Assembly: GCA_025361705.1 (NCBI GenBank)
Contig: JANYJW010000021.1
Location: forward strand, 1-64,000
Direction of reading: 5' to 3'
Length of the DNA: 64,000 nt
From: Gemmatimonas sp.
Lineage (GTDB): Bacteria; Gemmatimonadota; Gemmatimonadetes; Gemmatimonadales; Gemmatimonadaceae
The notes beneath the pieces are model-generated. The model had not been told where the DNA came from, ran no database searches, and worked only from the letters and a program-made list of their open reading frames with translations. Made by a program: the position numbers and the translations under genes. Position 1 is the stretch's first letter; the number at the start of each line of letters is the position of its first letter. This document shows positions 15,778 through 31,272 of the stretch, piece by piece.

Positions 15778-16299
15778 TCACGTCGGCCTGAACCGCAGCT
15801 GCACCACATACCGCCCCGGCGCCACCTTCGCGCCCGGCAGCAGCTTCCATGCCTGCGGCGCCTTCTCCACCAGGCACGCGTTCACCGCCGTGCCGGCCTT
15901 GGACGACCAATCGTCCGCGCCCACGCGCGCTGACCAGATCTTGCCGACGTCAACCACGACGACGAGCGCCACGGCGCCCACGAGCTTGGAGTCGGACTTC
16001 TGCCCGAACTCCTGGTAGCAGAACCGCGAGATGCCCTCTTCGCGCTGCACCGCTTCCATCAGCGCGTCGGGTGCGTCGGGGATGTTGGCAATGCGCAGGC
16101 GCGGCGCCTTGGGCGGCGCGACAAACAAGTCGTTCACCGCGGGCGGCAGCCCCGTCTTCACCGCGCCAAGGTCGACCTTGTGGGTGTCGGCCGGCGCGGA
16201 GAATGCGGCGATGGCCGCGTCGGTCGATCGACCCTTCGCATTGCCGCCGCACGCAGCGCCGACGAGGAGACCCGCGAGAAGGAAAGGGCGGAGGTTCAC
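15778..16299 (-). CDS. Lipoprotein with AgmX/TonB-like C-terminal region
   Basis: The start LLVGAACGG is a lipobox, giving a mature protein anchored by Cys17. The C-terminal 80 residues (FCYQEFGQKSDSKLVGAV, then WSARVGADDWSSKAGTAVNACL) align by eye with the C-terminal domain of the AgmX-like gene just upstream, sharing FCYQE and the ACL/ACI turn. It is thus probably a short paralogue, lacking the N-terminal membrane anchor and Pro-rich spacer. GTG start at 16299, 106 bp after the AgmX-like stop; the gap contains a 20-bp near-palindrome at 16355-16374. It is probably the last gene of the envelope cluster. Confidence 0.72.
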   Translation of the reverse strand: MNLRPFLLAGLLVGAACGGNAKGRSTDAAIAAFSAPADTHKVDLGAVKTGLPPAVNDLFVAPPKAPRLRIANIPDAPDALMEAVQREEGISRFCYQEFGQKSDSKLVGAVALVVVVDVGKIWSARVGADDWSSKAGTAVNACLVEKAPQAWKLLPGAKVAPGRYVVQLRFRPT

Positions 16300-16405
16300 A
16301 GTGCACCGTTGACCGTGGTCAGTTGTCCGCGACGAGCCCCGATCGCCGTCGCCGTCGAGAATCGCGATCCTCGATCGTACGCCACATCCACATCCTCAAT
16401 CCGCC

Positions 16406-17275
16406 CTATTTGTTGAACACAAACGAAAACCCGTATGTCTCATTCCCCGCCGCACTCGACCCGGGAAACGCCCAGCCGCGCATGCGCTGTAGAATGCACG
16501 CCTCGGCTTCGGCCGTGCCCGCCCCCGCCCACGTGCGCTCGGCCACCCGCGCCGACGCCACCGCACCGCCGGGCGCGAGCGACACTTCCACGCTGATCGA
16601 ACCGGCAAGACCTGGATTGAGCAGCAGCCCCTGCTCCTGATAACAGAACTGCAGCTGCGCCTGTCGCGATCGCACAAAGGTGCCCAATTGCGCCATATCG
16701 CGACTCGCCCGTTCGCCCGGACGAGCGACCACTTGTGGCGCCGCCACGCGAATGCTCGCGCGCACCACGCCGCCTTGGGCATTCACCTTGCCGATGCCCG
16801 ACGCCGCGGCCGCGGCCGCGGCATCGAAGCCCTGCCCCGGCGTGCGCGCGCCCGTGCCGCCTTGCCCGTATGCGATCACCGCCTTGCGTCCGCCCGAGCC
16901 GGCCTTGTCGCCCTTGGCCACCTCGACGCCGCGCAGGGCATTGGTGACGTCACCCACCAACGCGTTGGTGTTGCCGCCGCCAAAGGCGTCGCCAATCTCG
17001 GCTTCGTCCTTGGCCACGCGCTGCTTTTCCTTTTCGGCTGGCGTCGGTGGCGGCACGTTGACCACTGCGGCCGCCTGGGGCGGCGGCGCCTCGCGCTTGG
17101 GCGGAGGCGGCGGGTCGTCGAACTGCACTTCAATGGACGCCGCCTCTTCGGGGCGCAGCAAGGCGATGCTCGGCGGTGGCGCCGGCGTGAGGTACACCAG
17201 CGCCAGCCATCCCGCGCCGAGGCTCATCGACAGGAAGTGCGACACGGTGAGCGCGCGCGATTCCGACCCGATCAC
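16406..17275 (-). CDS. AgmX/PglI C-terminal-domain protein (TonB-like energy transducer)
   Basis: A single N-terminal transmembrane segment (about residues 12-30), a Pro/Lys-rich periplasmic spacer (DDPPPPPKREAPPPQ, about 50-75), a charged and Ala/Gly-rich middle, and a C-terminal TonB-like domain (LQFCYQEQGLLLNPGLAG to CILQRMRGWAFPG). This is the layout of proteins that carry ExbB/ExbD force across the periplasm. AgmX (GltJ) is known from Myxococcus gliding. The start overlaps the upstream ExbD stop, so it belongs to the motor operon. Confidence 0.82.
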   Translation of the reverse strand: MIGSESRALTVSHFLSMSLGAGWLALVYLTPAPPPSIALLRPEEAASIEVQFDDPPPPPKREAPPPQAAAVVNVPPPTPAEKEKQRVAKDEAEIGDAFGGGNTNALVGDVTNALRGVEVAKGDKAGSGGRKAVIAYGQGGTGARTPGQGFDAAAAAAASGIGKVNAQGGVVRASIRVAAPQVVARPGERASRDMAQLGTFVRSRQAQLQFCYQEQGLLLNPGLAGSISVEVSLAPGGAVASARVAERTWAGAGTAEAEACILQRMRGWAFPGSSAAGNETYGFSFVFNK

Positions 17276-17805
17276 GGCACCGTACCCGACACGCGCTGCA
17301 CTTGCAGCGACAAGTGCGTGAAGCCGGCGAGCCGCGCCGTCGCCATGAAGCGCGACAGCAGGTCGTACCGCATCGTGCGGTCTCCCTGAATGGCGAGCGC
17401 CACCTTGAGCTCGCCGTCGGGCCCGACGCCCTGTGCGCCGCGCAGCGAGTCGGCCAGCGACTTCATGGCGCGATACAACGTGGGCACCTTGAGCGGCTGC
17501 CGCGCATCGTTGCTCGGCTCCGCCGCCGCATCGACGGTGTTCATCACCGGGTGACTGGCCAGCGTCACCGTGGCGCCGACGCCGAGCGTCAGCTGCGAGA
17601 GCGCCGGCATGCCGACCGTCGTCTGCGGCAGCGTCACGCCGGGCACCACCGGTGCGAGCTCGCCGACGGTCGCCGTCGTGAGCGTGAAGAAGACGATGGA
17701 CACGAACGTGTCGACCAGCGGCACGAGGTTCAGCTGCGTCACGCGGAACTTGCTGAACTGCTGGGCGCGCCGCGCGGCGCGCAGGTCGCGCGTGCGGTTC
17801 TTCAT
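17272..17805 (-). CDS. exbD: ExbD/TolR-family biopolymer transport protein (second copy)
   Basis: One N-terminal transmembrane helix with LNLVPLVDTFVSIVFFTL at about residues 25-42; Asp32 is in the position of the proton-carrying Asp of the family. A periplasmic domain follows. It differs from the other ExbD by a longer insertion after the helix (LPQTTVGMPALSQLTL). It overlaps both neighbours by 4 bp, so translation is coupled through ExbD-ExbD-AgmX. It partners ExbB in a proton-driven stator. Confidence 0.87.
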   Translation of the reverse strand: MKNRTRDLRAARRAQQFSKFRVTQLNLVPLVDTFVSIVFFTLTTATVGELAPVVPGVTLPQTTVGMPALSQLTLGVGATVTLASHPVMNTVDAAAEPSNDARQPLKVPTLYRAMKSLADSLRGAQGVGPDGELKVALAIQGDRTMRYDLLSRFMATARLAGFTHLSLQVQRVSGTVP

Positions 17806-18347
17806 GGCGTCGTCACCGGGGTGGCGCGCGACTTGGTGCCCAGCGCGATGCCGCTGAAGCGCGCCTTCTTGAGCCGCTCGAGCACGCGCACGATGTCGTC
17901 GTACGACACGTCGTCCGACGGAATCACCACCACGTCGCGGTTCTGCGGATAGCGCGACCGGAGTTCCGTCATCAGGGCCTGCAGCGAATCGAGCGCGCGC
18001 CCGTTGAGGCTGTCGATGCGCGTGTGAAATCCGCCCTCGGCCGAGTGCTCAATTTCCAGATGGTCGTTGGCAACGCGCACGGCGAGCAGCAGGTTGAGCA
18101 CGTCCTTTTCGCTCTTGAGCTGCTTCACCTGATCGGGGCTCGTCACCACCACGGGCGGCAGCACCAGGTCAAAGCTGGTGAGCGCGGCGAGCGCGGTGCC
18201 CGTGTACGTGAGCAGCGAGAAGAAGACGATGGACGTGAGGATGTCGACGAGCGGCACCAGGTTCAGGTGCCCGCCCTCCGCGCCCCCCATGCCCGTGCCG
18301 CGTTCGGCCCGGCGCAGTCGGGTGCGATGGAAATAGCTCGACGCCAT
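17802..18347 (-). CDS. exbD: ExbD/TolR-family biopolymer transport protein (first copy)
   Basis: A transmembrane helix with HLNLVPLVDILTSIVFFSLL (about 27-46) contains the conserved Asp35. The periplasmic domain ends with VVIPSDDVSYDDIVRVLERL, the usual ExbD C-terminal helix. The 181-residue length is typical. It lies 21 bp after ExbB and overlaps the next ExbD. Two non-identical ExbD genes with one ExbB match the AglR-AglQ-AglS gene set rather than a standard single TonB system. Confidence 0.88.
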   Translation of the reverse strand: MASSYFHRTRLRRAERGTGMGGAEGGHLNLVPLVDILTSIVFFSLLTYTGTALAALTSFDLVLPPVVVTSPDQVKQLKSEKDVLNLLLAVRVANDHLEIEHSAEGGFHTRIDSLNGRALDSLQALMTELRSRYPQNRDVVVIPSDDVSYDDIVRVLERLKKARFSGIALGTKSRATPVTTP

Positions 18348-18368
18348 CCGCGGATCCGGCGCGCTCGC

Positions 18369-18995
18369 CTATTCGGCGCGTTTGGTGGTGAGCGCGTTGA
18401 TCAGGCGCACCGAAAACTCGTCGACGCGCTCAATCATCCCCTCGGCCTGGCTCGACAGCCAGGCGTGCGCCACAGACAGCGGGATCGCCGTGAGCAGGCC
18501 GAAGCCCGTCGCGTTCAACGCAATCGCGATGCCGCCGGCGAGCCGCCCTGAGCGTTCGGCGGCCGAGACCATGGCCACCGATGCGAACGCTTCGCGCAGG
18601 CCAAAGATGGTGCCCAGCAGTCCCAGCAACGTCGCCACGTTGGCGAGCATCGGGAGATAATGCAGTCGGCGCGTCAGCCCCGGGATGGCGGCAAGTCCGG
18701 CCGCATCGGCTACGTTCTGCAAGTCGGACTCCGTGCGGCTCTGCGACTTCAGCACGTACTCGCCGATGTGCGGAATGGCACCCGGCACGCCACCACATGC
18801 CTTGGCCGCGTCGGCCATCTTGCCGCTCTCCACCAGCGTGAGCACGCGTTCCACGAACTCGCGCGAGTTGCCCTTGCTCTTGAAGACGAGCACCCAGACG
18901 CGCTCGAAGAAGACGGCCAGACCAAGCACGGCCACCACGAGGATGGCGTGCATGATGGGTCCGCCGCTGCGGTAGTACTCGAGCAGAGTGTTCAT
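18369..18995 (-). CDS. exbB: MotA/TolQ/ExbB proton-channel protein
   Basis: Three transmembrane segments: about residues 15-33, 110-130 (LPMLANVATLLGLLGTIFGL) and 150-172 (LAGGIAIALNATGFGLLTAIP). These carry the family's GLLGT and AL-T-GL-AIP signatures. A cytoplasmic loop separates helices 1 and 2. With the two ExbD proteins it should form the inner-membrane motor that uses the proton gradient. Its start overlaps the upstream small secreted protein by 4 bp. Confidence 0.92.
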   Translation of the reverse strand: MNTLLEYYRSGGPIMHAILVVAVLGLAVFFERVWVLVFKSKGNSREFVERVLTLVESGKMADAAKACGGVPGAIPHIGEYVLKSQSRTESDLQNVADAAGLAAIPGLTRRLHYLPMLANVATLLGLLGTIFGLREAFASVAMVSAAERSGRLAGGIAIALNATGFGLLTAIPLSVAHAWLSSQAEGMIERVDEFSVRLINALTTKRAE

Positions 18996-19342
18996 GGCGT
19001 GCGTGTCCTCCGGTCAGGGGCCGCGGCGGCCCGCGCTTCGGCACTGGCCGGAGCGGGCACCACCACGCTGGCGCGTGCCGCGCCCGTGGTATCGGCAAGG
19101 GTGATCAGCGCCGGCACGAGCAGACGCCGCGTGTACTGCGGCACCTCGCGCGGGCGCACGGTGATGACTTCGGGAGCCGGCGCCTGCGCGCGAATCTCCA
19201 CCGTGCGTCGCGGTTTGGGCGCCGGCGTTGCGCCGGGCGCGCCAGCGGGGGCCGTCGGTTGCTGCGCACGCACCGCCGCCGGGACGCACGCCAAGAGGGC
19301 GAGCGCCAGCAAGAGGTGGACGTGCGAAGAGCGTCTTGTCAT
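18992..19342 (-). CDS. Small secreted Pro/Ala-rich protein of the motor operon, unknown
   Basis: Residues 1-26 form a signal peptide (LLLALALLACVPAAVRAQQ; the Cys could instead be a lipobox). The mature part is about 90 residues, rich in Ala, Pro and Arg, without a recognised domain. ATG at 19342 is chosen because the frame upstream of it is encoded by heptamer array D and has no coding character. It overlaps exbB by 4 bp, so it is translated with the motor. A stator-associated or spacer role is possible; function is unknown. Confidence 0.65.
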   Translation of the reverse strand: MTRRSSHVHLLLALALLACVPAAVRAQQPTAPAGAPGATPAPKPRRTVEIRAQAPAPEVITVRPREVPQYTRRLLVPALITLADTTGAARASVVVPAPASAEARAAAAPDRRTRTP

Positions 19343-19370
19343 CGGTAATTGTGAAATGTAGTCAACGCAG

Positions 19371-19403
19371 CCCATCCGCCATCCGCCATCCGCCATCCGC
19401 CAA
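19371..19403. repeat. heptamer tandem array D (about 4 units)
   Basis: Three full GCCATCC units at 19378-19398 with a partial unit on each side. It ends at the stop codon (CTA, 19404-19406) of the TPR gene. On the sense strand GGATGGC repeats follow TAG directly, in the gap between two genes of the same operon. Confidence 0.9.
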
Positions 19404-22400
19404 CTACCCTCGCGCCGGCACTCCCTTGCCCTCAAGCGCTTCCTTCGCGCGCTGCACCCACCCATTTGCAAACCCGCCCTTCTCCGCCTTGTCCACCAAC
19501 GCCTGCCACGTCGTGCGCGCCGCGTCGAAGTATTGCTGCGCCTGCTGTGCCGACCCCTTCTGCGCCGCCGTGCGCTGGCCTTCGTTCAGGTCGACCGGCA
19601 GTTGCACGTCGCGCAGGAAGATCCCGTAGTGCCACTGCGCGAGCCCGGTCTGAAACGACGCCGCGGCCAGCCACTCCGGCGCGCCCGTCGCAATGGCGCG
19701 CGCAAAGATCTGCCCGAGCTGGCGCAGCAGCTGCTGCTTGGGCACGGACGCCTTGTCCACCCCGGCACGCGTGAGGTCGGTGCGCGTGGCAATCACCAGC
19801 TTCATCGCCTCGTAGCGCGGCCACAGTGCCATGCCCTCGCGATACGCCGCCTCGGCCACGCGCGCCGCGCAGCGGTCGGCCAGCCCTGGCGCGGGCCGCA
19901 CGCAGAGGCGCGACAGTTCCGTGTTTGCCGTCGTCGAGTCGCCGGCAACCGCCAACTGGTCGAGCCGCAGGCGCTGCGCGTCGGGCACGCGTGGATCGCG
20001 CGGAAAACGCTGCACAAACGCAGCAAAGGTGCGCGCGGCGTTGGCCGCGTCCTTGGCATCGCCATACGTCACCGCCGCGTTGTACGCCGCGTCGGCCGCC
20101 CGACGATCCTGCGCGTAGGCCACGCTCATCTGCTCGTACGCAGCGGCCGCCTCGGCGCGGCGACCCAGCGAGTCGAGCAGCACCGCGGTGCGGACCATCG
20201 CGTCGGCGCGCCCCGGCCACGCCGTGTTGGCCGCCGTCAGCTCGCGCAGCGCCGCCACCGCGCCCGCTGCATCGCCAATGTCAGAGAGCAACCGCGCGCG
20301 CACGGTGCGATAGGTGAACGTGTGCTGGTACGCCGGATACTCCTTGGCCAGCTTCGCAATGATATCTGCGGCGCGGCGGCGCGCTGTCGTGGACGACGCG
20401 GTGTCACCGCGCGCGCGCGAAAGACTGTCGGCCGCGAGGTGCATCTCGATGGCATTGCGCATGGCGTCGCCGGCGCGCACGGGATCGCCGATGTCGGCGG
20501 CGAGCGGCAGGTACACCTCGTCGGCGGCTCGCGCGTGGGCGCCCGCCTTTACCAGCGAGTCGGCGACGCGCGCCGCCGCACCAATGCGCGCGCCGGCGAT
20601 GGAATCGACCAGCGCCTTGCGCCCCGTCGTCTGGGCCGCGCGCTGGGCCGTGCCCCATTCCTGCTGCGCCTGTGCATACTGCCCCAGCTTGAAGCGCGCG
20701 TCGCCCACCAGCTTGCGGGCGTCGGTCGCAAACGCGTCCGACGGCCAGCGCGCGGCAAACGCATCAAACGACTGCGCCATCACGTCCCATCGCCGCGCCT
20801 CCGACGCGCGGCGCCCCTTGGCGATCATCGCCGAGCGCGCGTCGGCTTCCGGCGCCTGCGCCGCAAAGCGATCGGCGGCGGCAAACAACGAGTCCTGCAC
20901 CGACCGCTCTCCCGGCGCGTGCGCAAAGGCCGAATCGAGGGCGATCATCGCATTGCGCCGCGCGGCGGCCGCCACCACCGTGTCCACTCGCACGCCGGCA
21001 CGCGCGTACTCTGCGCCGGCCTGTGCAAACTCGCCCGCGCCAAACAGCGCCTCGGCGTACAGCAGGTGCATGTGCGGCGCACTGTCGGCGCGCGCGAACT
21101 CGCGCTGGTACCGCGCGAGCAGTTCCGACGCGTTGGCGAACACCGGCCGCCCTCCCTTGGGCGCCTTGGCCAGTTCAAAGTGCGCCGCGTCACGCAGCAT
21201 CCGTTCGCGCACGATGGCCGCGGTGGCCGAGCGCGCCGCGTTGGCGCGCCCCCATGGCGACTGTGGGGCGTAGGCGTCCACGAGCTGCAGGCGCGCGCCC
21301 TGCGCGCGCTCCTGCTCGAGCATCCGGTTCTGGTACAAGTCCACCAGCTCGCCTTGCGCGTTCAACGCCGCCGTGTCGAGCGGCGCCTGATCCACCACGG
21401 CGCGGAAGGCGAGTGCCGCACTGGCAAACTCGCCCTGCTCGCGCAGCGCACGCGCCACGCGCCGCAGCACGAGCAGGCGCGTCTGCAAGTCGGGGAGCGA
21501 CGCCAGGTACGCAATGGCGTCGTTGGCGCCGCCAATCTGCGTCAGCGCTATGGCCATGTAGTCAATGGCCTCGTCGCGCAACGCAAGGCGCGACTGCCGG
21601 TCGCGCGCCAGATGATCGTAGTCGGCGACGAGGCGCGCGAACATGTCCACGGCGCGCCGGTACTCCTCCGAACTCTGCCGCTCGGCCTGCACATAGCTCG
21701 ACCAGCCCAGCTTGTAGAGCGCCAGGTAGTACACGTCGCCGTCGCGCGGCGAGAGCGCGATGGCTTTCTCGTAGGCCGCCGATGCCTGTGCCAGCTGCGC
21801 GCGCCGCGCATCGCCGGCGGTGCGAATGGCCATCTCGAATCGCGTCTCACCCTGCCGGTAATACGACTCGGCGCGATAGTGCGATTTCTCGTCGGCAATC
21901 ACGCGATCCCACGCGCGTGCCGCCTCGTCCCAGCGCTGGTCGGTGAAGCTCAGCGACCCCATCGTGTACGCGGCCGCGTCGGCTTCGGCGTCACCGGGAT
22001 ACCGCGTGAGGAACTCCTCGAGCCGCGCGATGGCCGCCGTGTAGTCGGGACGATCCGCACCGGTGCCCGCGCGCTGCGCCGCGGAATACTCCGCGTCCGA
22101 CTGGCGCGCGAGCAGTTCGGCTTCCTGCAACACCGCGCGAGGCCGCAGCGCACTCTGCGGGTACCGCGTGGCCGCCGCGTTCAGCGCGGACATCGCGTCG
22201 GCACGAACCGGGGCCGCACCGGTGTGGTCCATCGCCTCAAAGAAACGCGCCGTGGCCGCACCGAACTCCGCCCCCTCAAGATCGCGCGCCAACACCGTAC
22301 GCCATTGGCGCACACGCACCCGCAACTCCTCGGCGACGACCGCAGCGGCCAGGCCCGAGGTACTGTCGCGACCAGCCGCCAGCGCATCGCGCGCCGCCTG

Positions 22401-23945
22401 CAAGTCGCGTTCGCGCGCACTCCACTCGGCGGCCACCCGATCGCGGGCGGCAATGGCCGCATGGCGCGCGCTGTCCTGCTGCACCTGCTGCACGGCGATG
22501 GCCGCGCGAAGCGCCGACAGCCGCGCGTGCAGGCTGTCGCGCCGCATCAGCACCGGCTGCCGCACCAAGCCCGAATCGAGCACCGCATCGGCGGCGTCCG
22601 CGATGGTCTGATACGCCGCAGCGGTCGTCATCTCGTCACGCGCCACCTGCGCTGCCGCGGGCGTCATGCTGCGCGACGCCGACACCAGGCTGTCCACCCG
22701 ACGGCCATTCGCCCGCGCCAGACCACGCACGGCGCCGATCTTGCCCAGCAGCGTCGCGCGATACTGCCGCACCGTGCGCGCAATCGATGAGTCGCGCTGC
22801 ATCAGCGAGTCGGCGAGTACCCGGGCTCCCCGCTCCGACACCGCCAGCGAATCGCGCATTGCGGTGGCGTACTGCACTAGTTGCTCCGCAGCGGCGCGGC
22901 GCGTCGCCTGCGTCTGCCGCGCCTCGTCCAGCGCCTGCTGCGCACGCGCCACACGCGCGTCGGCCTCGCGCAGCTCCACGGCGAGCGCGCGCACCCGCAC
23001 CGTGCCCTCGGGCGTGAAGGGCAGCCGCAACGCCGCCCGCACGCCAGCCGGCGCCACCGCGCCACCAACCGCCCGCTCGGCCAGAGTCAGTTCGGCCGTG
23101 GTGCGCACATGAAGCGCCGGCGCGCCCGCCAGCACGCGCACCGTGTCGGGATACGCGACCAACAGCCGCCCAGTGGCCGCGGCATCGCCGTACAGCAGTT
23201 CAAACGCACGCGCCGCCACAATCGCGTGAGCGGGCGCCTGCACCGTGCTGTCGAATGGCGCCGCAACCGCCGCTACGGCGGCCCGCGTGCTGTCGAGCGC
23301 CGCGGCAAACCACACGCGCGCACTGTCGGCACGCCCCGCCTCGAGATGCGCCTGCGCCGCCATCAACTGCGCCTCGCTGCGCCGCAGCGGTGATGCCGCG
23401 CGCGTGGCCAGCGCACCGAACTGCACCGCCGCCTGCGCAAACTGCCCGGCACGGAAGGTGCGCCCCGCCTCCTCGCTCGACTGTTGCTCTCCCGGATCGC
23501 CCACAGGCGCCGCGCGCTCGGCGGCCATCTCGCCCTGCTCGGCGCGCAACCGCGCCAGCCGCTCGCGAATTGCATCGGCATCCTGGCCCGATGCCCCGGC
23601 ACGCAACGCACGCTCGGCCACGGTGGCAAAGGCGTCCGTCTGCCCAAGGCGCCCGTAGGCCAGTGCGAGCGGCGTGAGCACCGTGGCATCGTCGGTTCCC
23701 GCGCGCTCCATGAACGCGCGCGCGCGCTCGAGGTGCGTCACGGCCGACAGCACGCGCCCCGACGCAAGTTCCTGCAGCGCAATGCGCCGCTCCGCGTCCT
23801 GCGAGCGTGCCGCATCGGCGCGCGGCGCCACCTGCTGCGCCGCCAGTACGCCCGGGCGAGCCACCAGCGCTGCCAGAGCCACCAGCGCCACCAGCGCCAC
23901 CCGCGCCATCCGCACCATCCGCCAAGCCAACGAGCGCAGCGTCAC
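19404..23945 (-). CDS. Giant secreted TPR protein (about 1513 residues)
   Basis: The start is a signal peptide (RMARVALVALVALAALVARPGVLAAQQ, about 12-38), then almost the whole length is helical with repeated TPR-like Ala/Arg-rich pairs, for example ALAYGRLGQTDAFATVAERA, YKLGWSSYVQAERQ, YAEALFGAGEFAQAGAEYAR and AAYNAAVTYGDAKDAANAAR. A coiled region lies at about 330-420. It would act as a periplasmic scaffold. The GTG at 23945 is chosen because it follows the previous stop by 13 bp with a GAGGG motif; the longer frame to 24062 overlaps the upstream gene. GltD, GltE and GltI of Myxococcus are comparable large TPR proteins, but homology was not tested. Confidence 0.8.
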   Translation of the reverse strand: MTLRSLAWRMVRMARVALVALVALAALVARPGVLAAQQVAPRADAARSQDAERRIALQELASGRVLSAVTHLERARAFMERAGTDDATVLTPLALAYGRLGQTDAFATVAERALRAGASGQDADAIRERLARLRAEQGEMAAERAAPVGDPGEQQSSEEAGRTFRAGQFAQAAVQFGALATRAASPLRRSEAQLMAAQAHLEAGRADSARVWFAAALDSTRAAVAAVAAPFDSTVQAPAHAIVAARAFELLYGDAAATGRLLVAYPDTVRVLAGAPALHVRTTAELTLAERAVGGAVAPAGVRAALRLPFTPEGTVRVRALAVELREADARVARAQQALDEARQTQATRRAAAEQLVQYATAMRDSLAVSERGARVLADSLMQRDSSIARTVRQYRATLLGKIGAVRGLARANGRRVDSLVSASRSMTPAAAQVARDEMTTAAAYQTIADAADAVLDSGLVRQPVLMRRDSLHARLSALRAAIAVQQVQQDSARHAAIAARDRVAAEWSARERDLQAARDALAAGRDSTSGLAAAVVAEELRVRVRQWRTVLARDLEGAEFGAATARFFEAMDHTGAAPVRADAMSALNAAATRYPQSALRPRAVLQEAELLARQSDAEYSAAQRAGTGADRPDYTAAIARLEEFLTRYPGDAEADAAAYTMGSLSFTDQRWDEAARAWDRVIADEKSHYRAESYYRQGETRFEMAIRTAGDARRAQLAQASAAYEKAIALSPRDGDVYYLALYKLGWSSYVQAERQSSEEYRRAVDMFARLVADYDHLARDRQSRLALRDEAIDYMAIALTQIGGANDAIAYLASLPDLQTRLLVLRRVARALREQGEFASAALAFRAVVDQAPLDTAALNAQGELVDLYQNRMLEQERAQGARLQLVDAYAPQSPWGRANAARSATAAIVRERMLRDAAHFELAKAPKGGRPVFANASELLARYQREFARADSAPHMHLLYAEALFGAGEFAQAGAEYARAGVRVDTVVAAAARRNAMIALDSAFAHAPGERSVQDSLFAAADRFAAQAPEADARSAMIAKGRRASEARRWDVMAQSFDAFAARWPSDAFATDARKLVGDARFKLGQYAQAQQEWGTAQRAAQTTGRKALVDSIAGARIGAAARVADSLVKAGAHARAADEVYLPLAADIGDPVRAGDAMRNAIEMHLAADSLSRARGDTASSTTARRRAADIIAKLAKEYPAYQHTFTYRTVRARLLSDIGDAAGAVAALRELTAANTAWPGRADAMVRTAVLLDSLGRRAEAAAAYEQMSVAYAQDRRAADAAYNAAVTYGDAKDAANAARTFAAFVQRFPRDPRVPDAQRLRLDQLAVAGDSTTANTELSRLCVRPAPGLADRCAARVAEAAYREGMALWPRYEAMKLVIATRTDLTRAGVDKASVPKQQLLRQLGQIFARAIATGAPEWLAAASFQTGLAQWHYGIFLRDVQLPVDLNEGQRTAAQKGSAQQAQQYFDAARTTWQALVDKAEKGGFANGWVQRAKEALEGKGVPARG

Positions 23946-23958
23946 CGTGCCGTCGCCC

Positions 23959-24629
23959 TCACGGCCCGGGCGAGCTGCTGGTCCACGTCGTGGCCACCAG
24001 CACGCCGCCACGCAGCGTGAACTCCACGTACGTGATCGACTTGGGTGCGGCCGGCACCTCAATGGACACCCCGGTGCTCAGCCCCTTGCCTGCCACCTGA
24101 AGCACCACCTTATGCGCCGACGGCGGCACTTCGCCGCGATACAACTCCTCGGCGGCGCCCGCGGCAGCACCTTGGCCTGCTCAGCGCCAATCGTATGCGT
24201 GCCCGCCGCTGCGCCATCGAGCAGCATCACCGTGCTCATTTCGCCCGCGGGCACCTGATCCATGCGCAGCAGCACCACGAGCACGCTCGCCCCCGGCTGA
24301 CGCGCCGCGTCGTCGAGCAGGCGGATGCGGTCGCGTTGCACGAGCAGCCGCGCCTGCGCCGAGTCGAGCAGCAGCTCGAGGCGCTGCAGGGCGCCAATTT
24401 CGCCACCCATCGCCAGCATCGTCGCGCGCTGCGCAATCTCCGCCGCCAGCTCGCGCTCCAGCCGCGCCTCCAACTCCAACCGCTGCTTGCGCGTTACATC
24501 GAGCTGTTCCTGCAGCGACTTCAGCTGCTTGGCCGGGTCCACCGGTTTCTGCTGCGCGCGCACGCCCAGCGGCACCGCCAAGACAGCGGCACCAAGCGCC
24601 AAGATCGAAAGGAGACGTCTACCGTTCAC
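23959..24629 (-). CDS. Secreted coiled-coil protein, broken by an apparent frameshift
   Basis: The N-terminal frame has a signal peptide (LLSILALGAAVLAVPLGVRAQQ) and a coiled coil (KQLKSLQEQLDVTRKQRLEL onward, residues about 30-110), and continues to THTIGAEQAK. From about 24165 that frame turns into an Arg-rich tail ending at 24078. The next frame instead reads GAAEELYRGEVPPSAHKVV to ITYVEFTLRGGVLVATTW, a well-formed end with its stop at 23959. One missing base in the interval 24150-24176 would join them. Sequencing error, mutation or recoding cannot be distinguished. The GTG at 24629 is preferred; an in-frame ATG at 24668 lies inside heptamer array E. Confidence 0.68.
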
Positions 24630-24654
24630 CGTTGTCCGTGCTAAAGTCGTGGAT

Positions 24655-24705
24655 CCGCCATCCGCCATCCGCCATCCGACGTCAGATGGCAGAAGGCAGA
24701 TGGCC
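24655..24705. repeat. heptamer array E with inverted flank
   Basis: Three GCCATCC units (24657-24677) are followed by GACGTC and degenerate inverted units (AGATGGC, AGGCAGATGGCC). It ends 5 bp from the stop codon of the barrel gene at 24711. The sequence GACGTCGGATGGCGGATGG is shared with copy F at 38538-38556. Confidence 0.85.
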
Positions 24706-24710
24706 GAACC

Positions 24711-25814
24711 TCACAGCGGCGGCTTCCTCGCATTGAGCCGCTCCTGCAGCCGCTTCAACGCATCCTGCTCCTCTTTGAGCTTCTGCTCCAGCAATTCCCG
24801 CTGCGCGCGCCGGTCGGCCTCCGTGGCGCCTTCCACGCTGCGCAACTGCAGCTCGAAGGCCGACACGCGCGCCTCGCCCGCCCGTATCTCGCGCATCAAC
24901 TGGTCGCGCTCGCGCTCCATTTGCGCCACGCGCTCTTCCATCTTGTTGCCGCGAGCCAACGCCAGCACGTTGGTCTGCCAGCCAATGCTGAATGCCGCCT
25001 TGCGGTACGACCACGACGTCGCGCTGGGGCTTCCCGCGTCGGCCTCGAGCAGGTAGGCCGCCACACGCAGGCCGCGCACCTCATACACCGCGCCCACGTT
25101 GAAATCCCACCCGTTGTGCTCGGCCATCAGCGCCAGCGTTGAAAAGCGCGACGTCGCAAAATCCACCTTTGCCCCGCCAAAGAACCCGCCAGTCGCGTGC
25201 TTGGCGTACGCAGCCCCGGCAGACCCCTTGTCCGAGAACAGGCCGTTGCCGGCACCCAGGTTCAGCGTCACCTGCGTCGCACCGCGCGCGCCGGGCTCGC
25301 TCACCGGGCCCATCGCGAAGGTGCGCGTGGCCACCGCATACAGCGTCGGCGACGTGTTGAACCCCGCCGTCCCCGGCTCGGCCCAGCGCGTCAGACCGCT
25401 CTCGTTGCCCACGTTGCGCATGCCCACCGCCATGCTGGGCAGCCAATGCACCAACCCCGTGCGGAAGGCGCCATCCATCTGGTCCCACAGCAGCCCCTTG
25501 GCAAACAACCCGCCCTTGAGATCGCTGGTAAACACCGACGCGCCCACCTCGGCGCGCCCCCACAGCGACGCGCTCACCGAGAAGTTGTAGCTCTGGCCGC
25601 TCCCCTTGGGCCCCAGGCGTGCGGTCGAATCCAACTGCACACGCGTGGCGTGGAACGACAGGTCGCCGCCCAGCGGCGCCACCCACGCGGCCGGCGTGTC
25701 AATGAGGCCGCTGTCCCAGTAGAGCGTGGGCGTGAACGTGGCGCGCTGCGCGGCGGCCGGTGCGGCCAGCACACCCAGCACCAGCACGCCCAGCACTATA
25801 CGGCGGCTCATCAC
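24711..25814 (-). CDS. Outer-membrane beta-barrel protein with C-terminal coiled coil (copy 2)
   Basis: Signal peptide at residues 1-23 (VLVLGVLAAPAAAQ). A beta-rich barrel-like region runs to about 285, with alternating hydrophobic strands such as VGASVFTSDLKGGLFAKG and FNVGAVYEVRGLRVAAYLL. The last 80 residues are a coiled coil (MEERVAQMERERDQLMREIR to LKEEQDALKRLQERL). It is a paralogue of the upstream gene: both share a TPTL-W/F-GLI-PAAWV start, LPSMAVGMRNVG and HNGWDFN/ENDGWDWN. The two overlap by 4 bp. The helical tail could reach into the periplasm towards the TPR protein. Confidence 0.8.
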   Translation of the reverse strand: MMSRRIVLGVLVLGVLAAPAAAQRATFTPTLYWDSGLIDTPAAWVAPLGGDLSFHATRVQLDSTARLGPKGSGQSYNFSVSASLWGRAEVGASVFTSDLKGGLFAKGLLWDQMDGAFRTGLVHWLPSMAVGMRNVGNESGLTRWAEPGTAGFNTSPTLYAVATRTFAMGPVSEPGARGATQVTLNLGAGNGLFSDKGSAGAAYAKHATGGFFGGAKVDFATSRFSTLALMAEHNGWDFNVGAVYEVRGLRVAAYLLEADAGSPSATSWSYRKAAFSIGWQTNVLALARGNKMEERVAQMERERDQLMREIRAGEARVSAFELQLRSVEGATEADRRAQRELLEQKLKEEQDALKRLQERLNARKPPL

Positions 25815-26974
25815 AGGATCTCCGGTGGCTTGGTGCCTGGCTTCACCTTCTGCAGGCGATCGGCGGCGCGCCTGGCCGCTTCGCGCTCCTGCTCCAGCGC
25901 CTTTTCCAGCGCCGTGCGCTGGGCGGTCGACTCCGCATCGGCGCGCAGGCGGGCGCGGGCAATCTGCGCACTCAGCTCGCGCATCCGCTGGTCACGTTGC
26001 TGCACCTCCCGACGCAGGCGGCGCGCTTCCAGCTCCAGCTCCACCGCCTCGGCGCGCTGGCGCGAGCCGCGGATGATGTCCGGAATGGAGCCGTTGTAGC
26101 CGAGTATCAGGTTGGTCTTGGTCCAGTTGGCGAGCGGCTCGCTGGGCGGGATCCCCTTGGTCTCCTCGAGCTCGGTTGCCATCAGGCCAAAGGTCACGTG
26201 TCCCGCGGTAATGACGACGCCCGCATTCCAGTCCCAGCCATCGTTTTCCATCACCAGCGACATCTTGCTCGTCTTCGACAGCGGCATGGCCAGCCGCGCG
26301 CCCATGAACAGGCCGGGCGTGAGCGTGCCATTTTGATTGTACACCGAGTCCATGCCACCGCTGTTCTTGAACAGGCCCGTGCCGTAGCCCACCGTGACGC
26401 CGAGCGCTGCCTTGTCCCAGGTGAACTCGCGGGTGGCCACGCCGTAGAAGGACGGACTGCCGTTGATGATGCCCTTGGCCGCTCTCTGCGAGGCCGGCAG
26501 GGCATCCACGACGCGCCGCACGCCCGTGACATACCGATCCTGCCGCGCGCTGGCGCCGACGTTCCTGACACCCACCGCGAGGCTCGGGAGCCACTTCAGG
26601 TCAGGCTGCTGTCGGTAGATCAGCACCGAGGCGTGGGCGCCGACCTGCTGATTGTTGGTGCTGTAGATGGAGCCACCCAGCGAGACGCGCCCAAAGAGGT
26701 GCGCGTCGGCGGTCATCGTCAGGTCCCAGATGGAGCCATTGGGGCGTGGCGTGAGCGAGCCCTGATTGAAGCCGCGCGCCGAGGCCGCCACCCAGAGGTC
26801 ACCGTGCTCGGGGGAGACCCAGGCCACCGGGGCGTTGATGAGGCCCGTACCGAAGGTGAGCGTCGGCGTGTAGGCCGTGAGGGACGGCGGTGCGTCCTGG
26901 GCCCGTGTGACGGCAGCGGGCGAGAGCAGGAGGGCAAGCGCCAGCACGCGGCGCAGGCGGGGCGACAGGCGCAT
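25811..26974 (-). CDS. Outer-membrane beta-barrel protein with C-terminal coiled coil (copy 1)
   Basis: Signal peptide (RVLALALLLSPAAVTRAQ), a barrel-like region with LPSLAVGVRNVG, FTWDKAALGVTVGYGTGLF and MSLVMENDGWDWNAGVV, and a C-terminal coiled coil (AEAVELELEARRLRREVQQR onward). It is probably the first gene of the ten-gene envelope cluster. ATG at 26974 is preferred over an upstream start at 27025, since the signal peptide begins there; no SD is visible. The 27026-27211 gap upstream must hold the operon promoter, but no convincing -35/-10 pair was found. A 14-bp palindrome (GCCGACTAGTCGGC) is at 27195-27208. Confidence 0.8.
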   Translation of the reverse strand: MRLSPRLRRVLALALLLSPAAVTRAQDAPPSLTAYTPTLTFGTGLINAPVAWVSPEHGDLWVAASARGFNQGSLTPRPNGSIWDLTMTADAHLFGRVSLGGSIYSTNNQQVGAHASVLIYRQQPDLKWLPSLAVGVRNVGASARQDRYVTGVRRVVDALPASQRAAKGIINGSPSFYGVATREFTWDKAALGVTVGYGTGLFKNSGGMDSVYNQNGTLTPGLFMGARLAMPLSKTSKMSLVMENDGWDWNAGVVITAGHVTFGLMATELEETKGIPPSEPLANWTKTNLILGYNGSIPDIIRGSRQRAEAVELELEARRLRREVQQRDQRMRELSAQIARARLRADAESTAQRTALEKALEQEREAARRAADRLQKVKPGTKPPEIL

Positions 26975-27937: not shown

Positions 27938-30900
27938 CTACTTGGTGACCGTGATCGCAGAGACCGTCGACTTGACGGAGTTGACCGAAACCTTGGTCGA
28001 GCCATCAGCGATGATCGAGTAATCGCCAGCCGCGGCGAGCGTAGCCACGATGCCCTTGTTGGTCGCCGTCGAGCTGGTGCTGTAGCGGCCAACCGCGAAG
28101 TAGTTCACGGCACCCGGCGGTACAACACGGCCCTTGATCGGCGTCAGGATGCCGAACGTGGTGGCCGGAGCAAAAGTGTACGTGTAGACGTTCGTCGTCG
28201 TCGAGAGGTAGTACCCGGCGATCGTCGACGAATCCACGGACACCGTCGCCGTGTTGCTGCCATTGCCGACCTTCACGTCAGCCTGACCATCCGGCACGTA
28301 GAAGTTCACCGTGCTGAACGGCGTGACCGTCAGCTTGTTGACCGCGGCAATCGCCGCGTCGCAAGCCGCCACCGGAGCCGCGTTCACAAGACCGCAGGTA
28401 ACCGGCAGCGCGATCGAATCCTTGACCACAACCGTGGCCTTCAGCGTCACCATCGTCGGCGCGTTCACGCCAGCGCCAGTGTACGCCGTGACACCAGGAG
28501 CCGTCGTCACAAACGTGCAGTAACCCGAGTTGATGGCGGCAGAACCAATCGCGCCACAACGGTTGGCCGTACCGATGACACCACCAAACGTCGTCACCGG
28601 AACAAAGGCGTTCACCGAAGCGGCCGTCGCAGCCGCCACCGTAACGTTACCAGCGTAGTCAACCGACGTCAGCTGGATGCCGGCGGTCGGAATAATCGTC
28701 GCAGCAGCAGCAGCCAACGCGGCCGCAGACATGCCGCCCGAGAAGGCGGCGTCGCCCGGGATGATGCGGCCGTGCGTCGGGGTGCAACCCGAGTACGTCG
28801 CAGCATTCACGACAACCGGAGTCGGAGCGCCCGTGAACGTGCTGTGGACCGTGGTCACCGAGCACTTCTCGCTCACCACACCGTACAGCATCTTGCCGTA
28901 GTAGTAGCCCATATCCTGATCGTCCACGACCGTCACACCCATCACGGCCGCACGGCCGAGATCGCCGGTGATCGCGGGCGTCCCGACCGGGGCACCCGGC
29001 ACTGTCGCGTCAACAAGGAACGTGCGAGCCGCCAAGGCGACGGTGTTGCCAGCGTTGTCGTAGACGGTCGGCGTGACCGTGTAGTAACCGTTGGCGCCAA
29101 CGACGGCCGTCTCGTAGTAGTTAGCCTGGGTAACGTTGTTGGTGATGAAGCCATCAGTGCCGGTGCCATTGGTGCAAGGAACGGCACGACCATACCAGCA
29201 AGTCGAGACACCGTTTGCAACCTGCGTGATCGCCATGCGCACGCCCTTGATGCCAGACTTGCCGGTCGCAGCACCCGCAGCCGCGTCGGTCGCCAGGATG
29301 AAGAACTTGCCGCCGGTTGCAAAGAGGCTATCGGCGCCTTCGACCTTCAGGGCGGCAAGCACGGAAACCGCATCGTCGTCAATCGTGTAACGGGCCGCAT
29401 CCGGGATCGTGCGGTCAACGCCAATCACAACCGTGCTGCCGGTGCCCGTGAACGAGCAATCCGTCGGCGCGGCACTCACGTTGCCGAGCGCGTCATAGGC
29501 GCGGACCACCACGCACGAGGAGAAGCCGGCCGTCTCGGCCAGCGACGAAACGTTCGTCACGGGCGAGCTCGCCAGCGCCGTCGCGAGCGACGTGCCCACG
29601 AACGCCTTGTACGTCACAACCTGCGGATCCGTCGTCGCAACGCCGCTCGAAACGGCGGCGTCCACACCACGCGCGGTGATGAGGTTGCCGGCGAATGGCG
29701 CGGTCACGCTTTCCGTTGAGCCAACCACGCCCGTCAGGTTGACGGCGTCGTTGAACCAGCCAGCCGCACGGCGGCTGTACGTGCCCGAAATGCCAACGTC
29801 CTGCCGACCGATCGTCGGAGCCGTCGGGCCGAGGTTGTCATAGCGACGACGCTGGGCAACGATCGAGGCGTCAAACGCCAGCGCCGGGGCGGAGTTGCCA
29901 TCAGCCATGATGGCCGACACGAAGATCGGCTGCTCGCCATCGGTCGTGGCCGTCGCCGAGCAGTTGCCACCGTTCGCCGTGGAATAACCGGCGGTCGGCA
30001 CGCCATAGCGAACCTTGAACGGCGAGACGACCTTCGTCCACACCGAATCACCGCACACCGGGCGCATGGCGATCGAGGTGATCGCGCGGCCGGAGTACAA
30101 GACCGGGAGGATCGTCACGTCGAGCGAGTCCGAGATCTTCGACCAGAGGTAGCCGGTCACGGACGTCGCGGTGTTCGCCGACGTGAACGCAACGGTCGGT
30201 GTGACCTTGGCGGCCAGCACGTCCACATTGGCGAACGTCAGGCTCTGCGCGGCCGTGGCCGTCGCGGCCGCAGTCGTGGTGCCCACCGTGTAAAGCTGGG
30301 CCGAAATCGCCTTGGTTCCATTCGGGAACTTCGCCACGCCCGTCACGGCATCGTACGCGGCCGTGCTGACCGAGAAGACTACCTGCGGGAACGTCGACTG
30401 GGCCGCAACGGCCTGGTCAGCCGAGAAACGCAGCGCCGCAGCCTGGGCCGCGGAGTACATCTGCGAGTCCTGACGCACGGTGCCGACGAGCAGCACGATC
30501 TTGGAGATCGTCTGGTTGCCGGGGTTGACGTTCAGGGTGACGTCGATCTGGCCCGTCACGTTCGACACCGTCACCGGGGCGTTCAGGCCGCCCACCGTCG
30601 ACGTGATCGAGTTGATCGAGACCGTCGCCGGGATCAGCGCCGTCGCGGGCGTGACCACGATCGTGGCGCAACCCTTCTTGCCGGAATCAACCGTCGAGGT
30701 CGCGCATACGGCGACGCCCGGGGTGGCGGCAAGGGCGAGCACGACACCCGACGCGCTCACCGAGACCTTGGCCGCGTCCGAAGGCAGCCACGAAACCGTC
30801 GTCGCAACGCCGGCATCCGCGTTCACCGCGGCCGTCAGCGTGATCGACTGACCGATGTTGAGCGTCGCCGAAAGCGGCGCGACGGCAACAGAATTCACCT

Positions 30901-31015
30901 TTAGAACAGCTGCGGGCGTCGGTGCCGGCGTGTATTCCGTTACCGACACCTTGTCACCGCACGCTGCGAGCAACGCAGCGCCAACGACGAGAATCGTCTT
31001 ACGAGAGAAGTGCAT
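27938..31015 (-). CDS. Large surface lipoprotein with Ig-like (BIG2) domains
   Basis: The start MHFSRKTILVVGAALLAACGD has a clear lipobox, giving a mature protein of about 1000 residues. A BIG2-like Ig domain follows (VNSVAVAPLSATLNIGQSIT, VSWLPSDAAKVSV), then more beta-sandwich-like segments rich in Thr, Val, Ala and Asn (VTVSNVTGQIDVTLNVNPGN, LGNVSAAPTDCSFTGTGST). Paired cysteines occur in several modules. Such proteins act in adhesion or as surface layers. ATG at 31015 has a GGGGG run nearby. The codon choice looks less GC-biased than in neighbours, perhaps because of amino-acid content. It is followed by a strong terminator. Confidence 0.78.
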   Translation of the reverse strand: MHFSRKTILVVGAALLAACGDKVSVTEYTPAPTPAAVLKVNSVAVAPLSATLNIGQSITLTAAVNADAGVATTVSWLPSDAAKVSVSASGVVLALAATPGVAVCATSTVDSGKKGCATIVVTPATALIPATVSINSITSTVGGLNAPVTVSNVTGQIDVTLNVNPGNQTISKIVLLVGTVRQDSQMYSAAQAAALRFSADQAVAAQSTFPQVVFSVSTAAYDAVTGVAKFPNGTKAISAQLYTVGTTTAAATATAAQSLTFANVDVLAAKVTPTVAFTSANTATSVTGYLWSKISDSLDVTILPVLYSGRAITSIAMRPVCGDSVWTKVVSPFKVRYGVPTAGYSTANGGNCSATATTDGEQPIFVSAIMADGNSAPALAFDASIVAQRRRYDNLGPTAPTIGRQDVGISGTYSRRAAGWFNDAVNLTGVVGSTESVTAPFAGNLITARGVDAAVSSGVATTDPQVVTYKAFVGTSLATALASSPVTNVSSLAETAGFSSCVVVRAYDALGNVSAAPTDCSFTGTGSTVVIGVDRTIPDAARYTIDDDAVSVLAALKVEGADSLFATGGKFFILATDAAAGAATGKSGIKGVRMAITQVANGVSTCWYGRAVPCTNGTGTDGFITNNVTQANYYETAVVGANGYYTVTPTVYDNAGNTVALAARTFLVDATVPGAPVGTPAITGDLGRAAVMGVTVVDDQDMGYYYGKMLYGVVSEKCSVTTVHSTFTGAPTPVVVNAATYSGCTPTHGRIIPGDAAFSGGMSAAALAAAAATIIPTAGIQLTSVDYAGNVTVAAATAASVNAFVPVTTFGGVIGTANRCGAIGSAAINSGYCTFVTTAPGVTAYTGAGVNAPTMVTLKATVVVKDSIALPVTCGLVNAAPVAACDAAIAAVNKLTVTPFSTVNFYVPDGQADVKVGNGSNTATVSVDSSTIAGYYLSTTTNVYTYTFAPATTFGILTPIKGRVVPPGAVNYFAVGRYSTSSTATNKGIVATLAAAGDYSIIADGSTKVSVNSVKSTVSAITVTK

Positions 31016-31272
31016 GGAGCCCCCAGTGGAAGAAAGCACTACAGGATTACTGCGGAAATGAGTCCTCGCGCACCGGCAACGCCTCCATCCACGGAAAGAC
31101 GTCCTCGCAAGGGCAAAACACACTGCTGGCCAATCTCGTGGAATATGACGACCGTGCGGCCAAGCGGCAACCCCTCCGGGGTCGCCATTTGTCCGCGCAG
31201 CTGCCTCATTCCGTTTGCCCAGACCGGCCAGCCACTCTAATGAAGCCGAGTTGGTGATCCGATCCGGAAGCC

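Follow-up and report, generated by a model that had tools for sequence, protein, structure and literature searches.

A conserved operon for a putative trans-envelope motor in Gemmatimonadaceae

Few energised links between the inner and the outer membrane are understood. In Myxococcus, the G1/G2/M1 plan combines AglR with AglQ and AglS, and includes GltG, which has a TonB-type tail; the TPR proteins are GltC, D, E and I, the outer-membrane proteins are GltA, B and H, and GltF is a protein of 89 residues (PMC3169522). TonBC-type tails, together with proposed TonB-box contacts for GltF and GltA/B, have been described (PMC3169522, PMC9389320, PMC5349195). A paper of 2011 already reported a core composed of aglRQS and gltCDEG in Gamma- and Betaproteobacteria, Geobacter and Fibrobacter, and argues that this core is insufficient for motility (PMC3169522). 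In Vibrio TonB2 operons, the genes for ExbB, ExbD and TonB are accompanied by those for a TPR protein and a periplasmic leucine-zipper protein, neither of which is dispensable for uptake (PMC6957404), and PVC operons have the arrangement TPR-TolQ-TolR-TolR, with vWA transducers (PMC12204202).

The locus described here is a real, conserved and lineage-restricted trans-envelope motor operon. It joins a familiar motor to unfamiliar outer-membrane parts in a phylum whose machines of this kind have received little study, and offers an independent test of which parts of Agl/Glt and Tol are essential. We think it likely that the locus is a dedicated PMF-driven machine for trans-envelope force transduction, of the Tol/Ton/Agl class and restricted to Gemmatimonadaceae, which are bacteria of soil and water.

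Gene content and gene order

The source genome is a 2.97 Mb draft, and the locus lies on its contig C39 (by window we mean the whole stretch of this contig that was analysed, 64,000 nucleotides). Its ten genes are all on the minus strand, and are read from 26974 to 15778 in the order barrel1, barrel2, coiled-coil protein, TPR protein, small secreted protein, ExbB, ExbD1, ExbD2, transducer and lipoprotein (Table 1). Several adjoining genes overlap by 4 bp, which suggests that the locus is read as one transcript. The sequence-only reading had listed these ten parts, on one strand and over the same span, and domain and HMM matches, with AF2 for the barrels, bear out its list, including the single ExbB, the two distinct ExbD proteins and a lipoprotein that shares the C-terminal domain of the transducer. 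Three details have to be corrected: a frameshift interrupts the coiled-coil gene in this assembly, the start of the TPR gene is most likely ~23945 rather than 24062, and the coiled-coil protein has an added beta-sandwich.

Table 1. Genes of the locus in the order in which they are read
Feature	Coordinates	Strand	Basis
Barrel1: outer-membrane beta-barrel, C-terminal periplasmic helical hairpin	25811..26974	-	AF2 of 33-row alignment
Barrel2: paralogue of barrel1 (~30% identical), 4-bp overlap with barrel1	24711..25814	-	
Periplasmic coiled-coil protein, transthyretin-like beta-sandwich	23959..24668	-	Orthologue comparison, AF2, fold search
Large periplasmic TPR protein, ~1513 aa	19404..23945	-	NCBIfam TIGR02795 E 5.5e-21, 4 stretches
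Small secreted protein, TonB-box-like motif	18992..19342	-	23-sequence alignment
ExbB/TolQ-type proton channel subunit	18369..18995	-	PF01618 E 5e-20; TIGR02796 E 1.7e-17
ExbD1: ExbD/TolR-type subunit 1, TM aspartate in LVPLVD	17802..18347	-	PF02472 E 1.7e-11
ExbD2: ExbD/TolR-type subunit 2, TM aspartate in LVPLVD	17272..17805	-	PF02472 E 5.4e-11
TonB-like force transducer, 289 aa	16406..17275	-	NF033768 55.6 bits vs cut-off 40
Lipoprotein with AgmX-type C-terminal domain	15778..16299	-	Family HMM cross-matches; NF033768 alone E 0.055

Gene order, which the earlier reading had proposed to compare among relatives, is kept for nine genes (barrel1 to transducer) in 15 complete loci from several Gemmatimonadaceae genera, and in 8 more loci as far as their contigs extend. 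Chance assembly of the genes is ruled out by the order being kept across the complete loci. The parts are also co-inherited: pairwise distances of ExbB, the TPR protein, the transducer, the coiled coil and the barrels correlate with r 0.90-0.98, and those of ExbD1 correlate with the other parts with r 0.70-0.90 (both computed without a housekeeping-gene baseline), and such strongly correlated divergence is as for parts inherited together. Upstream of the operon (27938-31123, minus strand) is a predicted 1061-aa lipoprotein with no Pfam match. Its candidacy as an adhesin or machine part is unsupported; among the loci compared, only two genomes, both from the same genus, have a relative of it.

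TolQ is the nearest model for the ExbB of the locus, and the nearest solved structure is also TolQ. The transmembrane threonines of ExbB, in the motifs GLLGT and ALNATGFGL, are conserved in alignments of full-locus orthologues, as is the LVPLVD aspartate in both ExbD proteins; together with the PF01618 and PF02472 matches, these channel threonines and the TM aspartate place the proteins in the TolQ/ExbB-TolR/ExbD superfamily. The absence of a TM3 glutamate was dropped as an oddity of this ExbB, since other ExbB proteins of the phylum also lack it.

The transducer consists of one TM helix, a Pro- and Gly-rich arm and an AgmX/PglI C-terminal domain, whose two Cys residues are conserved in orthologue alignments. 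The site of the TonB/TolA TM-helix His is not conserved, and is occupied by H, Y, W, N or Q, which speaks against the machine that we favour. No match was found to the transducer in a plasmid collection, nor to its alignment in the PDB. The transducer belongs to the AgmX/PglI C-terminal domain family (NF033768); the lipoprotein lies under the cut-off of this model, and its shared domain is weak when searched alone but clear by family HMM cross-matches. The lipobox is plainest in one orthologue (VLAAC, at locus L020). Membership of the lipoprotein in the operon is less certain, because in several genera TPM and nucleotidyltransferase-like genes part it from the transducer. At eight loci (L056, L059, L060, L061, L062, L064, L021 and L082), these two genes lie between transducer and lipoprotein, and lemA comes next. 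Close to the locus, the opposite strand encodes further lipoproteins with a related AgmX-type domain (L053:18183-18689, L057:15260-15949 and L068:15319-15834).

The coiled-coil ORF (24078-24668) shifts frame near 24165 (24160-24170), and the true C-terminus is in the other frame, ending at ~23959; in relatives, the gene is one intact frame of ~230-255 aa. The shift is either a sequencing error or a real lesion. A long helix and a transthyretin-like beta-sandwich are predicted in an AF2 model of the L020 orthologue and by fold search. The TPR protein has repeats of the YbgF/BamD (YfiO) type, and in many relatives and genera it is encoded by two adjacent genes.

Distribution and loss

This type of ExbB is found in 26 of 395 Gemmatimonadota genomes, all within Gemmatimonadaceae. 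The matches are strong in 22, and the other four genomes, all from genus g32, have solo copies that match less well (of these, three were examined). Beyond the 26 genomes, matches fall to E ~1e-30. These second-tier proteins, from other families, were considered as distant members and rejected, as all five examined are without other locus parts; some come from small exbB-exbD operons that have housekeeping genes as neighbours. Among 84,980 species genomes, a scan that requires close sequence patterns, so that distant forms would escape it, found 19 loci, all in Gemmatimonadetes/Gemmatimonadaceae/Gemmatimonas and all MAGs. By these scans, which find close forms, the locus is restricted to Gemmatimonadaceae.

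Within the source's own genus the locus is patchy, and is missing from some near-complete genomes. In many genera, genes for TPM, a nucleotidyltransferase-like protein, a lipoprotein and LemA adjoin the operon. In genus g32 (L078, L079 and L080), a solo ExbB with eroded TM threonine motifs is found at the lemA/metG/dnaE site, a pattern that suggests loss at an ancestral site and not a recent gain. Erosion of the channel motifs in the solo ExbB is expected if ion conduction matters only with the remaining parts.

Outer-membrane parts and proposed mechanism

Barrel1 has an N-terminus that reads as signal-peptide-like, and its orthologues are 34-82% identical. In the AF2 barrel model, 12 strands are accompanied by a C-terminal helical hairpin of ~80 residues (pLDDT 78.8, pTM 0.70). 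The barrels form a Gemmatimonadota family, with relatives (family f5) in which a domain that reads as OmpA-like follows the barrel, and these domains support an origin of the barrels as anchors from the outer membrane to the cell wall. The f5 relatives (L089-L097) occur as 1-3 per genome, sometimes in neighbouring pairs, and some are fused instead to an undescribed C-terminal domain (PPPPDTV...ICLSTGQN). Genus g39 (G250, L081) keeps the motor, TPR, coiled-coil, transducer and lipoprotein genes, with no recognisable barrel and with a divergent coiled-coil protein; the barrels may thus be replaceable.

A fold search with the barrel ranks FapF, the functional-amyloid secretion barrel, first, though the match is weak (TM-scores 0.32-0.49, 12-16% identity). 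Both have a 12-stranded outer-membrane barrel and a periplasmic coiled coil; unlike FapF, the locus barrels have the coiled coil at the C-terminus, and no other fap-like gene was recognised at the locus. As FapF is an exporter, this match would suit energised transport of the TonB2/TtpC kind, in which the transducer would open the two barrels for nutrient or polymer passage across the outer membrane, and so would the Vibrio TonB2 operons, where ExbB/ExbD/TonB are paired with leucine-zipper and TPR proteins (PMC6957404). However, the locus has neither a TonB-dependent receptor plug nor a second TolQ-like protein corresponding to TtpC, only 1 among 18 orthologues of the coiled-coil protein is matched by DUF3450, without significance (E 0.077), and relatives of the barrels have OmpA-like anchoring domains. 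We regard energised transport as somewhat unlikely.

The small secreted protein is variable save for one motif of ~23 residues, P[AT]P[EQ]V[IV]T[VI]RPR...P, which holds all 10 of the columns that are conserved at at least 95% in the 23-sequence alignment. The conserved segment, such as APEVITVRPREVP or TPQVVTVRPREVP, is present in all 23 orthologues. TonB boxes read like DTITVTA, and the segment appears TonB-box-like in sequence; a docking role is a candidate, and we treat it as a lead. As this is the single conserved motif of the protein, its contact with the transducer is directly testable.

Past the domain assignments, we infer each step of the mechanism of the dedicated force-transducing machine; its proton flow, force transduction and outer-membrane contact are read from the protein families. 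ExbB would be a pentameric channel, and the two ExbD proteins its central helix pair, probably a mixed one. By analogy with Tol, Ton and Agl, ions passing through ExbB/ExbD would set the TonB-like transducer in motion, and its AgmX-type C-terminal domain would span the periplasm and dock on partners on the outer-membrane side. Among possible partners, the best candidates are the lipoprotein, which has the matching domain, and the small secreted protein, which has the TonB-box-like segment. Force may reach the paired barrels and their helical tails through a periplasmic scaffold made up of the TPR and coiled-coil/beta-sandwich proteins, and the motor probably exerts a pull or a push on the outer membrane. 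The barrels could serve as anchors alone or as channels too, and the candidate outputs are gliding (which is unproven), handling of outer membrane or polymer, and export.

Comparison with known systems

A complete Tol-Pal system (TolQ, TolR, TolA/TonB, TolB and Pal) is encoded elsewhere in the genome, on contig C45, and a Ton set (ExbB, ExbD and TonB) on contig C28. These rule out the locus as the genome's plain Tol or Ton system, and make it a third, added and dedicated motor. Of the results that the sequence-only reading had itself set against its proposal, neither a plain TonB/Tol system nor genes scattered in relatives was found, and a lack of relation of barrel and TPR proteins to Glt families was found in part. 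The locus resembles Tol-Pal (TolQRA-TolB-Pal-CpoB) in its TolQ-type channel, TolR-type subunits, TolA/TonB-type transducer, CpoB-like TPR protein and lipoprotein. Unlike Tol-Pal, it has two TolR proteins, and is without TolB or Pal: neither PD40 nor OmpA turned up when its genes were searched for Pfam domains. A second system of the plain Tol-Pal type, holding the outer membrane attached (e.g., at division), would agree with the closeness of ExbB to TolQ, the CpoB/YbgF-like repeats, the OmpA-like relatives of the barrels and the encoded lipoprotein, but the missing TolB and Pal and the complete system on the other contig argue against it, and we consider it unlikely. Because the dedicated machine that we favour would include, as a special case, an output in transport or in outer-membrane tethering, our confidence in these two alternatives overlaps with our confidence in that machine.

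Vibrio TonB2 (TtpB, TtpC, TtpD) is similar in that its ExbB, ExbD and TonB are encoded with a TPR protein and a coiled-coil protein of the periplasm. Unlike TonB2, the locus encodes a single PF01618 protein and no TtpC, has no TonB-dependent receptor and no significant DUF3450 (TtpB), and adds a second ExbD, the barrels and the lipoprotein. The PVC operons share with it a TPR gene, one TolQ, two different TolR and a membrane-anchored transducer in one operon (PMC12204202). Unlike the PVC operons, the locus has a transducer tail of the AgmX/TonB type rather than vWA, and contains barrels, a coiled-coil protein and a small secreted protein. Since PVC operons, too, have TolQ and two TolR next to a TPR gene (PMC12204202), this combination alone is no pointer to Agl.

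The likeness to Myxococcus AglRQS-Glt (and Nfs) comprises one TolQ-like and two TolR-like proteins, a transducer with an AgmX/PglI tail, exported TPR proteins, outer-membrane barrels and a small secreted protein (GltF, 89 aa). In Myxococcus, contact between AglR and GltG has been shown by bacterial two-hybrid. The parallel in parts drawn by the earlier reading is real, and closer than claimed, in that GltF is also small and secreted and has proposed contacts of the TonB-box type. Unlike Agl/Glt, the locus is one operon, with two paralogous 12-strand, helical-tailed barrels, its transducer has neither an FHA domain nor a GltJ-type N-terminus, and it is not tied to the presence of MglA. The GltG model (NF033760), which covers an FHA domain, a TM helix and an AgmX/TonBC tail, matches the transducer only over model positions 480-646 (56.7 bits vs a cut-off of 650), i.e., in the tail and not in the N-terminal domain. 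The GltJ (AgmX) model NF033761 has no match at the locus, and two weak matches on other contigs of the genome; the GltE model NF033758 has no match at the locus at E 0.1 or better. The myxobacterial model TIGR04565 (OMP_myx_plus), to which we take the Glt barrels to be assigned, matches none of the 33 barrel sequences, and has one weak match elsewhere in the genome, outside the locus. GltA, B, C, D, H, I and K are likened to locus proteins by TPR and barrel character only. A relation to Glt families held for the GltG tail and failed for the GltE, GltJ and OMP_myx_plus models, and for barrels, coiled-coil and TPR proteins none was detectable among the families tested. The placement outside Myxococcota stands for this locus in Gemmatimonadaceae, but is not new for such systems, given the core reported in 2011 (PMC3169522).

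MglA-like GTPases are found in 24 of 24 Gemmatimonadaceae genomes tested, with the locus present or absent, and most genomes have one copy with ~75% and a second with ~60% identity to the Myxococcus sequence (both values approximate). MglA is therefore uninformative as a gliding marker for the locus. A true Agl/Glt homologue, descended from the aglRQS-gltCDEG core and moving outer-membrane adhesion complexes along the cell in surface gliding, would account for the shared parts, from the motor and the AgmX/GltG tail to the GltF-like small protein, and for the ~75% identical GTPases in the same genomes. We judge it improbable in view of the unmatched GltJ, GltE and outer-membrane models, the match to GltG in the tail only, the occurrence of MglA regardless of the locus, the patchiness within one genus, and the argument that the core alone is insufficient for motility.

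We propose tentatively, as a possibility rather than an expectation, that the dedicated machine is a new PMF-driven class that arose independently in Gemmatimonadaceae, in which a two-ExbD TolQR motor and an AgmX-type transducer, gripping the TonB-box-like segment of the small protein (soluble and periplasmic in this reading), would work a pair of OmpA-like-anchor barrels; the Agl/Glt plan would then have been reached by convergence, with unrelated outer-membrane parts. For the families compared, homology to Agl/Glt appears to reach no further than the AgmX tail and the motor superfamily. The locus would work like the Agl/Glt, PVC and TonB2 systems, and we do not assign it to any of them. A likeness to Agl/Glt or Tol in how it works is well supported; identity with Agl/Glt is not.
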